A stretch of 64,000 bases of DNA from Pirellulales bacterium (GTDB lineage Bacteria > Planctomycetota > Planctomycetia > Pirellulales > Thermoguttaceae), in the NCBI GenBank assembly GCA_013360685.1, contig JABWBD010000001.1, positions 1 to 64,000 on the forward strand, written 5' to 3'. Within the stretch, counting starts at the first letter, position 1. Each line of letters begins with the position of its first letter. Below, piece after piece: positions 17,032 through 26,947 of this stretch. The notes beneath the pieces were generated by a model. It was not told where the DNA came from. It saw nothing but the letters and a program-made list of their open reading frames with translations, and did not search any database. The position numbers were made by a program, and so were the translations under genes.

Positions 17032-17073
17032 GAGAGTCGAGGGTCGAGAGTCGAGAGTCGAGGGTCGAGAGCC
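17032..17073. repeat. Heptamer array (GAGAGTC/GAGGGTC), 6 units, with inverted partner at 17098-17109
   Basis: GAGAGTC GAGGGTC GAGAGTC GAGAGTC GAGGGTC GAGAGCC; downstream GCTCTCGACTCT. Confidence 0.9.
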
Positions 17074-17189
17074 AGACAAGCTCGGGCTAGACTTTCCGCT
17101 CTCGACTCTTACTGGCGAACACGGGGAAAAGAAGAATGAGCCGTCGCGGCGTCTTGACGGCATGTCTCCTGTTTCGGAGAATCGGGCTC

Positions 17190-18206
17190 ATGCTGGTGAA
17201 CGTGAACCCGAAGAACGATTACGCTTTCAAGGCCGTCTTCGGCAGCCCATGGCATACGCGCGTCTTGATCCATCTGCTCAACGCGATTCTCGTACCTGGC
17301 GGCCTACGGGTACAAAGCGTGCGAATCCTCAATCCGTTTAATGAGATCCGGGAATGGGACGACAAGAGGCTGATCTTGGACGTGAAAGCCGCCGATCAAC
17401 TGGGACGACTCTACAACATCGAGATGCAGATGGTGCCGGCCCTGAGCTTCCCCGGCCGATTCCTCTACTACTGGTCCAGCATGTATGGGAGCCAGCTCAA
17501 AGAGGGGGATCGTTACGAGCAATTGCGCCCGGTAATCTCCATCTGCTTCCTGGACGGCATCTTGTTTCCGGAGTGCGACGACTATTACCTGCGGTTCCAA
17601 TTGCTGGAGGCGACGAAGCACTTTCCACTCACCGGCGATCTTGACCTGCACGTTTTCCAACTGTTGCACTATACCAAGCCGGCCGACGAACTGGAAACGG
17701 ATCTGGATTTGTGGCTGTACGTCCTGAATAATGGACAGGGGATGGATACTGAGAATCTTCCCAGCAAGCTGAGGGTGGCGGAAATCGTAGAGGCCTTGGA
17801 GGCATGGGCGATGTTGACTGAGGACCGGACGAGACGGGAAATTTACGAAGCCCGAGAAAAGGCGAGACGGGACGCCGAGGACTGGAGATCAGCCTTGCAG
17901 CGAGCGGAGCAGCGCGTACAGGACAGCTATATCCAAGGGCAGGAAGAAGGCCGACAGGTGGGGCTGACGGAAGGCCGACAGGTGGGGCTGACGGAAGGCC
18001 GACAGGTGGGGCTGACGGAAGGCCGACAAGCGGGGCTGACGGAAGGCCGACAAGCGGGGCTGACGGAAGGCATCATCGGTCAGATACGCCTGTGCGAAGA
18101 GCTACTCAAGCGTGCGCCGAGAGCCGAGGACGAACTGGCGGCGATGTCGATCGACGGCTTGCGGCAGTTGGCCGACCAACTGCGAGCAGAGCTCCGTCAG
18201 CGGTGA
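17190..18206 (+). CDS. Rpn/PD-(D/E)XK nuclease family putative transposase protein
   Basis: NPKNDYAFKAVFGSPWHTRVLIHLLNAIL...LDVKAADQLGRLYNIEMQM...PGRFLYYWSSMYGSQLKEGDRYEQLRPVISICFLD; alternative start at 17136. Confidence 0.88.
   Translation: MLVNVNPKNDYAFKAVFGSPWHTRVLIHLLNAILVPGGLRVQSVRILNPFNEIREWDDKRLILDVKAADQLGRLYNIEMQMVPALSFPGRFLYYWSSMYGSQLKEGDRYEQLRPVISICFLDGILFPECDDYYLRFQLLEATKHFPLTGDLDLHVFQLLHYTKPADELETDLDLWLYVLNNGQGMDTENLPSKLRVAEIVEALEAWAMLTEDRTRREIYEAREKARRDAEDWRSALQRAEQRVQDSYIQGQEEGRQVGLTEGRQVGLTEGRQVGLTEGRQAGLTEGRQAGLTEGIIGQIRLCEELLKRAPRAEDELAAMSIDGLRQLADQLRAELRQR
17949..18068 (+). repeat. 5 x 24-bp in-frame tandem repeat encoding GRQ(V/A)GLTE
   Basis: GGCCGACAGGTGGGGCTGACGGAA x3 then GGCCGACAAGCGGGGCTGACGGAA x2. 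Confidence 0.95.
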
Positions 18207-24803: not shown

Positions 24804-26648
24804 TTACAGCACGCGTTCGCCACGGCGGCGTTTCCGCGAGGCGATCCGGCCCGCCAACGAAGCGATCTCTCGCCAGAGTGCCTTCCAATGGATTGTCCCG
24901 GGCGGGAACTGGCGAGCGTACTCGCGCAGGAATCGCGCGCACATCGAACGAGTCACCCAGGGATGGGCGGCAAGACCGGCGGCGAGTCGGGCGAGGTCGG
25001 CCGGCGCGGCTTTGGGCGGGGCATGACGCGTGACGCGAACGTCGTCCACGTCGATCACGTAGGCATCGACCCGTTCGCCGCTTTCAACAACCAGGAGATT
25101 GGTCGCTTTCAAGTCGCCGTGCGAGATCCCCCAGGCGTGCATCGTTCCGACGAGCCGCCCCAGGCTTCGGGCGCACCGATCGGCCCTACGACGTCGATCG
25201 GCCGGCTCCGCGCCGGCAAGCCGCCATCCATACAGGTGCAGGTTTTCGGCACCCTCCAGCCACTGGGTGGCAAGATATGTGCGGCGTCCGAAACGGGGCC
25301 GAGAGGGCGCAATCATCGCCAGCGGCCGGGCCGTGGCAATGCCTCGCTCGAACAGGGCCTGGCCCAGACGCCAGCCGTGCAAGGCCCGATCGCGGCCGAA
25401 AAGCCGGCAAATCGCTTTCCACCAGTTCCGCGGCCGGTAGCATTTGTAGGCCACGGCTGCGGGGCCGTGGGCGGTCGACAGTATCGCCCTGACAACCAGA
25501 CTACTGTGACTGAGCTTTACGGGATGTTCCAGATGTCCCCAAAGAGGAGCCTCGGGGTGTTGGCCCAATTCCTGCAGAACGTCCTTAGCAATCTCCTGAA
25601 GGCAGTGAAGCCGGGCGCCATTTGTCCGCACGGCTTGGTAGTCGCGATTCGTGCGAAGTGGCCGTTTGTCTCTCTGCCGGTGGAGTCGGCGGAGAAATCG
25701 CCGCGCCCCGGCCTGTATCTGCTCCGCGATGGAACGGAGATCCGGCAATTCGGGCACGCGGCGGTGGGCGACATAAGCTCGCCAAAACCGCAGACGGTCG
25801 CTGCGCGTCGTGTGGTCCCTGGCGATGGCTGCCAGCGCAACCAGGTTCTCGCGAGCCGACCGCCACGACAACGGTTTCCCCAATCTCACTCCCGAGACAT
25901 CAATCAGGTGGAAATTGGGCAGGCCATGCTCCCGGCAGGACACCAGGATGTTGCCCATATGGAGGTCGTTGTGCTGGACGCCCGCCTCATGGATGCGAGC
26001 GAGAAACGCCCCCAGACCGTCGAGCAATTGCCGCCTGGTTCGAATTCCTTCGTGAGTCGGAAATGACGGCAATTGCCTTGCGAGGTATTCGTCAAGCGTA
26101 CAGGCGCCCTCGATTGCCTCGGTGACGAGACAGCTCTCGGTGACCATGCCCCCCTGCACCCGCTCCCCGCAAGCCAGCGGTCGCACGGTCGGGACGCCGC
26201 GACGGGCGATTTCCACGATCCGCTCCCATTCCCGACGCGCGGCACTTCCCCGCAGCAGGTCGCGAGCCACATTCCACCAATGGGGCGAGTGGAAGTGCTT
26301 TACGTAGACGTTGCCGCCGTTCCACTGGGTACAGGTGACGGTGCGATGCGGACCTCGCTTGACCACTAAGGCCCGCCGTTGGGTCTGCCAGGCGGACCAT
26401 CGAAGACTCCTCCAGCCGACGAGTGCTGCTACCCATTGGGCAGCCACCTGCCAGCGGGTGTTGTCGGCGGCAAAATGGACGTGCCGGTCGTTAGGAAACG
26501 CCCGAGCAGGCTCCACGGAAGCCGCGCTCCCACTGGCGGCGCTGTGGACTTCGAGTTCGCGGCCCGCAAGAGGGTGCGACAAGGGGGCTTTCTCCCGGTC
26601 CAAATCATCACGATGGCGGAATCCGAGCGTCGCGGGAATTGGTAGCAT
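24804..26648 (-). CDS. Tandem lipopolysaccharide/Kdo kinase-like (WaaP/RIO-type) protein with two kinase domains
   Basis: Two catalytic loops: GVQHNDLHMGNILV...FHLIDVSG and GISHGDLKATNLLV...YVIDVDD; longer ORF to 26813 has a non-homologous-looking N-terminus. Confidence 0.75.
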   Translation of the reverse strand: MLPIPATLGFRHRDDLDREKAPLSHPLAGRELEVHSAASGSAASVEPARAFPNDRHVHFAADNTRWQVAAQWVAALVGWRSLRWSAWQTQRRALVVKRGPHRTVTCTQWNGGNVYVKHFHSPHWWNVARDLLRGSAARREWERIVEIARRGVPTVRPLACGERVQGGMVTESCLVTEAIEGACTLDEYLARQLPSFPTHEGIRTRRQLLDGLGAFLARIHEAGVQHNDLHMGNILVSCREHGLPNFHLIDVSGVRLGKPLSWRSARENLVALAAIARDHTTRSDRLRFWRAYVAHRRVPELPDLRSIAEQIQAGARRFLRRLHRQRDKRPLRTNRDYQAVRTNGARLHCLQEIAKDVLQELGQHPEAPLWGHLEHPVKLSHSSLVVRAILSTAHGPAAVAYKCYRPRNWWKAICRLFGRDRALHGWRLGQALFERGIATARPLAMIAPSRPRFGRRTYLATQWLEGAENLHLYGWRLAGAEPADRRRRADRCARSLGRLVGTMHAWGISHGDLKATNLLVVESGERVDAYVIDVDDVRVTRHAPPKAAPADLARLAAGLAAHPWVTRSMCARFLREYARQFPPGTIHWKALWREIASLAGRIASRKRRRGERVL

Positions 26649-26947
26649 AGATTCGCATCCCGAAACAAGCTCAATTGGCGAGGTTTTCGGCTCGGCGCGA
26701 GTCCAGGAGTGGTTCGGGAATCGGTGGCCGACTCCAGGGAAAACACCGCGAGGCGTCCGGAAAAACGCCTGGAGGCGAAGCGTTTGTCCCACGTTGCTTC
26801 GAACCGCTTCCAAGTCCAGGTCTGTTCCCCCTCTTCCAAAGGCGGCGGAGCTATGCCATACTACAAGGTTTGCCAGCTACTCCTGGCCTTGTGCTGGAGG
26901 CAGGCTGTGACGTTGACTCCCTTTTCTCTAACCCATAGGAGGTAGAC

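Follow-up and report, generated by a model that had tools for sequence, protein, structure and literature searches.

Does a single planctomycete polypeptide carry two working kinases of the Kdo/WaaP type, or has one of its halves taken on another role? The question is raised by a gene on the minus strand at 24804..26648 of the window, by which we mean the whole 64,000-nucleotide stretch of Pirellulales DNA analyzed here. An ORF check places its ATG at 26648 and its stop at 24804-24806, giving a product of 614 aa counted from that ATG; the plus-strand frame across 24804-26648 is interrupted by stops. The true start is uncertain, because homology begins near query residue 47-66 in most relatives, residues 1-47 are predicted to be disordered, and other possible starts exist (GTG at 26516, TTG at 26813), with the frame staying open upstream to 26813 and beyond. 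Kyte-Doolittle means along the protein peak at 1.1, so no segment is strongly hydrophobic, and on that basis the protein is probably cytoplasmic.

The Pfam profile PF06293 (Kdo/WaaP; gathering cut-off 21.3 bits) matches the whole protein at 135.3 bits in two stretches, and in a six-frame search of the genome the halves scored separately at 79.0 and 61.3 bits. Domain 1 (D1) comprises residues 56-344 (25617..26483, minus strand), as defined by the best PF06293 stretch (residues 87-292), the residue tally described below and the AlphaFold2 model. Domain 2 (D2) comprises residues 345-614 (24807..25616, minus strand), with its PF06293 match at 24918-25406. AlphaFold2 predicts two kinase folds for the whole protein (pLDDT 85.6, pTM 0.80), and D2 modeled alone gives a pLDDT of 92.6 and a pTM of 0.89. 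For both models the top PDB match is WaaP (6dfl), followed by the KEOPS kinase PRPK/Bud32; comparison with a set of viral structures gave nothing informative. These predictions suggest that each half folds as a WaaP/Bud32-like kinase, and they agree with a first-pass annotation of this DNA, which had read two WaaP/Kdo-type kinase domains in one polypeptide. The protein belongs to the Kdo/WaaP superfamily and reaches none of the equivalog cut-offs that NCBIfam sets for WaaP, KdkA and Bud32. For WaaP/RfaP (NF011703), the scores are 104.4 bits for the whole protein, 74.9 for D1 and 34.0 for D2, and the cut-off is 170 bits. KdkA (NF002475) is the second-ranked NCBIfam match of the whole protein and the top one of D2 alone; this Kdo kinase shares the PF06293 superfamily with the tandem kinase, which differs from it in having two domains and in scoring 69.5 bits against a cut-off of 142.

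To compare the two active sites, we tallied residues over the non-identical rows from all fetched loci (n = 65 for D1; n = 70 for D2, the latter leaving out the strongly decayed D2 copies of genomes G080, G065 and G408). All coordinates that follow are on the minus strand. In D1 the catalytic set is complete. The nucleotide-binding Lys K117 (26298..26300) and the α-C Glu E140, part of an R-E-W motif (26229..26231), are each present in 65/65 rows. The catalytic loop HNDLHMGN (residues 226-233, 25950..25973) supplies H226-x-D228 and N233, with D228 found in 63 rows (Glu in the other 2) and N233 in all 65, and the metal motif LIDVSG (residues 248-253, 25890..25907) supplies D250, also found in 65/65. 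A separate observation concerns a distant family, where G524 and G556 (L125:9216-10826, L126:8225-9892) have HGE in place of HxD in D1, the catalytic Asp being replaced by Glu, and keep HxDLK in D2; the direction of decay here is the opposite of the usual one.

D2 of the window protein keeps K402, H510-x-D512-K514, N517 and D533. K402 (25443..25445) is Lys in 68/70 rows and is invariant in A2; K378 is likewise invariant. The loop HGDLKATN (residues 510-517, 25098..25121) is similarly well conserved (D512, 68/70; K514, 64/70; N517, 70/70), as is D533 (68/70) of the metal motif VIDVDD (residues 531-536, 25041..25058). The first-pass annotation had picked out both loops and both metal motifs correctly, but its view of DVDD as a departure from the canonical metal motif did not hold up: DVDD differs only slightly from IDLDG, the consensus of D2 (IDLDGV in relatives), and the solved WaaP structure has D188-L-H at this point. 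We therefore ruled out an abnormal metal motif.

The real departure lies elsewhere. When the D2 profile is aligned to the 6dfl chain, the column that pairs with WaaP E78, the equivalent of the α-C Glu, is occupied in the window protein by G425 (25374..25376). Glu is present at this position in 65/65 D1 rows versus 0/70 D2 rows, the D2 column consisting of A (32), S (20), G (9), N (5), T (2), D (1) and C (1). No substitute conserved acidic residue was found on the D2 α-C helix; the acid-rich N-lobe columns 366, 447 and 462 lie outside it. Hence the proposal of two active kinases in tandem stands as regards the nucleotide-binding Lys, which is present in both halves (K117 and K402), and falls short as regards its Glu partner, which is present in D1 (E140) and missing from D2. 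Since the Glu is absent from D2 in every relative tallied, the two active sites, as judged from sequence, are not equivalent.

How much weight this loss should be given can be gauged from WaaP itself. In the WaaP structure E78 is the partner of K51, and in Pseudomonas aeruginosa the E78A variant supports growth with hypersensitivity to EDTA, whereas K51A, D163A and D188N give no growth (PMC6147952). Loss of the Glu is thus a real departure, yet no proof of inactivity. The tandem kinase resembles WaaP/RfaP (P. aeruginosa, 6dfl) in its fold and, in D1, in the layout of Lys, Glu, HxD and metal-binding Asp. It differs in having two domains per chain, in the lack of an E78 equivalent in D2 and in its catalytic loops: WaaP has an HRDxYxxH loop, in which growth of P. 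aeruginosa depends on Y165 as well as on H168 (PMC6147952), and both residues are absent from D1 and D2 alike, with Asn standing where WaaP has H168. PF06293 has been placed in the KdoK-Rio-Bud32 cluster of protein-kinase-like families, and, in the part of that survey consulted, the families with a conserved replacement of the corresponding Glu (E91) are CAK-chloro and HSK2, both with Phe (Kannan et al. 2007, PMC1821047). Set beside the families named in that part of the survey, D2 is a lineage that lacks E91 and has small residues, not Phe, in its place.

Genomes with matches to the tandem kinase number 21 of 61 in the family, 49 of 197 in the order, 182 of 298 in the class and 267 of 392 in the phylum, some of these matches being only single-domain WaaP-like or one-domain proteins. 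Proteins with both domains, about 550-740 aa long, occur repeatedly across Planctomycetota. A scan of genome contigs yielded one close relative, from a Rhodopirellula sp. MAG (66% identity), which is also the closest named one. Comparison of the window gene with this relative gives dN/dS values (YN00) of about 0.18 in D1 and about 0.16 in D2, and both halves are thus under purifying selection. In an unrooted tree of D1, D2 and WaaP sequences, D1 and D2 sequences fall for the most part into two different clusters, within each of which the branching follows planctomycete family. This pattern suggests that the fusion or duplication is old and that inheritance within Planctomycetota has since been mainly vertical. 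The separation of D1 from D2 is incomplete, with weak support at the deepest forks (74) and ten D2 rows, from the most distant families, placed on the D1 side. At three loci (L018, L019 and L047, of G054, G031 and G219), an insertion of >100 residues separates the strands with which D2 begins.

The domains are also separable. Stand-alone D2 genes with intact motifs occur in G010 and G296, and in G394 such a gene exists besides a two-domain protein. The tandem proteins of G248 and G353 have a degenerate C-terminal domain, and each of these two genomes carries elsewhere a stand-alone D2 gene with intact motifs. In the tree, the stand-alone D2 genes of family f22 group together (97), as do, separately, those of family f1 (95), indicating at least two origins. 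Some of the f1 cases are on short contigs; the G010 gene lies within a 300 kb contig. These genes are the strongest hint that D2 may have a function of its own.

On balance, we favor the view that the protein is a two-domain ATP-dependent kinase of envelope glycans, in which D1 would be a conventional kinase and D2 a second one lacking the α-C Glu. In D1, the Lys-Glu pair, catalytic Asp, and Asn/Asp metal ligands would serve to transfer the γ-phosphate of ATP to a sugar hydroxyl. D2 would bind ATP and metal through K402, N517 and D533, with its catalytic Asp and Lys kept, would orient K402 without the usual α-C Glu, and most likely would carry out a second phosphorylation. The near-universal presence of the catalytic residues in both domains (n = 65, n = 70) argues for retained ATP chemistry, the intact stand-alone genes argue for D2 activity of its own, and the separability of the domains would fit two distinct reactions; the first-pass annotation had suggested phosphorylation of two LPS core positions as one possibility.

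The main rival to this two-kinase reading is that only D1 is catalytic and D2 is a nucleotide-binding, pseudokinase-like partner that gives D1 allosteric support or positions it, in the manner of kinase/pseudokinase pairs. We regard this as rather unlikely, though it accounts well for the missing Glu, which is absent from D2 everywhere, and for several cases of decay: in G080 and G065, D2 no longer has the Lys or the HxD motif, next to an intact D1 set, and the degenerate second domains of G248, G353 and G408 (the last in the protein inspected) have nevertheless been retained. However, nearly all D2 domains otherwise keep the Lys, HxDLK, Asn and metal Asp, and stand-alone D2 genes keep their motifs, G248 and G353 carrying one alongside the degenerate copy. 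In addition, growth of the WaaP E78A strain indicates that loss of the Glu need not abolish activity (PMC6147952), and the Asp-to-Glu change of G524 and G556 affects D1, beside an intact D2.

The likeliest substrate would be the LPS core or a similar envelope glycan. At 16 of the 20 loci inspected outside the window's order, a same-strand glycosyltransferase gene (GT4/GT1-type, GT2 or GT9, assigned by Pfam on cluster representatives) lies immediately beside the tandem kinase, and at some of the loci outside the order a GT9 heptosyltransferase or O-antigen ligase gene is close by too. At one locus (L123:12788-14812, G493), a single open frame encodes a Kdo/WaaP kinase domain together with a GT4-type glycosyltransferase, near a tandem kinase and a GT9 gene. 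No glycosyltransferase or LPS genes were seen beside the tandem kinase in the window or at loci of its order, and this counts against the envelope-glycan reading. The window copy is flanked by a hydrolase gene and a xylose-isomerase-like gene, and order relatives have as neighbors a TPR gene at 11 loci, a GGDEF gene at 9 loci and other genes. The TPR gene is directly upstream on the same strand at these 11 loci (e.g. L067:7663-8679, L070, L072 and L088), and DUF6793 genes occur in 11 of the fetched stretches.

The source genome contains three GT9 genes. Next to one of these, a heptosyltransferase gene, and 3 bp away from it, is a WaaP-like gene that is distinct from the tandem kinase gene and encodes a single-domain protein with the WaaP-type loop HRDLYCGH. 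Given this adjoining pair, the tandem kinase is probably not the ordinary WaaP of the organism, and the heptose-I step may already be covered. The Kdo transferase family WaaA (PF04413) is found in the source genome and in 213 of the 216 good-quality genomes of the phylum sample. WaaA being present in nearly all genomes, co-occurrence with LPS genes proved uninformative as a test. Many planctomycetes carry WaaA without a tandem kinase gene, so the tandem kinase is not required for LPS as such. A more far-reaching proposal, of a bifunctional kinase found phylum-wide, with D2 active without its Glu, two phosphates added to the LPS core or another surface glycan, and either activity repeatedly lost, decayed or moved elsewhere, is one we offer tentatively, at somewhat less than an even chance.

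The same neighborhoods bear on the idea that the protein is a protein kinase or an RNA-modification-linked kinase of the PRPK/Bud32 type instead of a glycan kinase. Bud32/PRPK (TP53RK) of KEOPS is like the tandem kinase in fold and type of catalytic loop, PRPK/Bud32 provides the second-best structural and sequence matches (arch_bud32 ranks third among the NCBIfam matches), and the TPR and GGDEF neighbors within the window's order would be compatible with such a role. However, the score for TIGR03724 (Bud32, KEOPS) is 49.7 bits, far below the equivalog cut-off of 125, WaaP ranks ahead of PRPK in all PDB searches, and the tandem kinase differs from Bud32 in its two domains and in its glycosyltransferase neighbors in other orders. 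We consider this reading improbable. That an assembly or annotation artefact has joined two genes, a concern raised in the first-pass annotation and lent some color by the fragmented source assembly (563 contigs, 77% complete), is refuted almost beyond doubt by recurrence, since one open frame spans about query residues 60-611 in many independent genomes, single-contig ones included, and the rows of each domain cluster by planctomycete family.

Our searches of the open-access literature found no description of planctomycete tandem WaaP kinases, and one may exist elsewhere; the tandem kinase is apparently an old, widespread and undescribed planctomycete protein. As far as we searched, little has been published on phosphorylation of outer-membrane glycans in planctomycetes, despite their Kdo and lipid A genes. 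With a conventional and a Glu-less site in one chain, stand-alone D2 genes and degenerate copies, these proteins offer a natural comparison for departure from the Lys-Glu pair and for the course of kinase-to-pseudokinase decay in bacteria.

Elsewhere in the window, an ORF at 17136-18206 contains, at 17946-18071 on the plus strand, a 24-base unit in five in-frame copies that are almost identical (98% match) and encode EGRQVGLT/EGRQAGLT. The product of this ORF is presumably similar to transposase-related proteins of the Rpn/PD-(D/E)XK type. Upstream of the 24-base repeats, at 17032-17071, there is a short GAGAGTC repeat.
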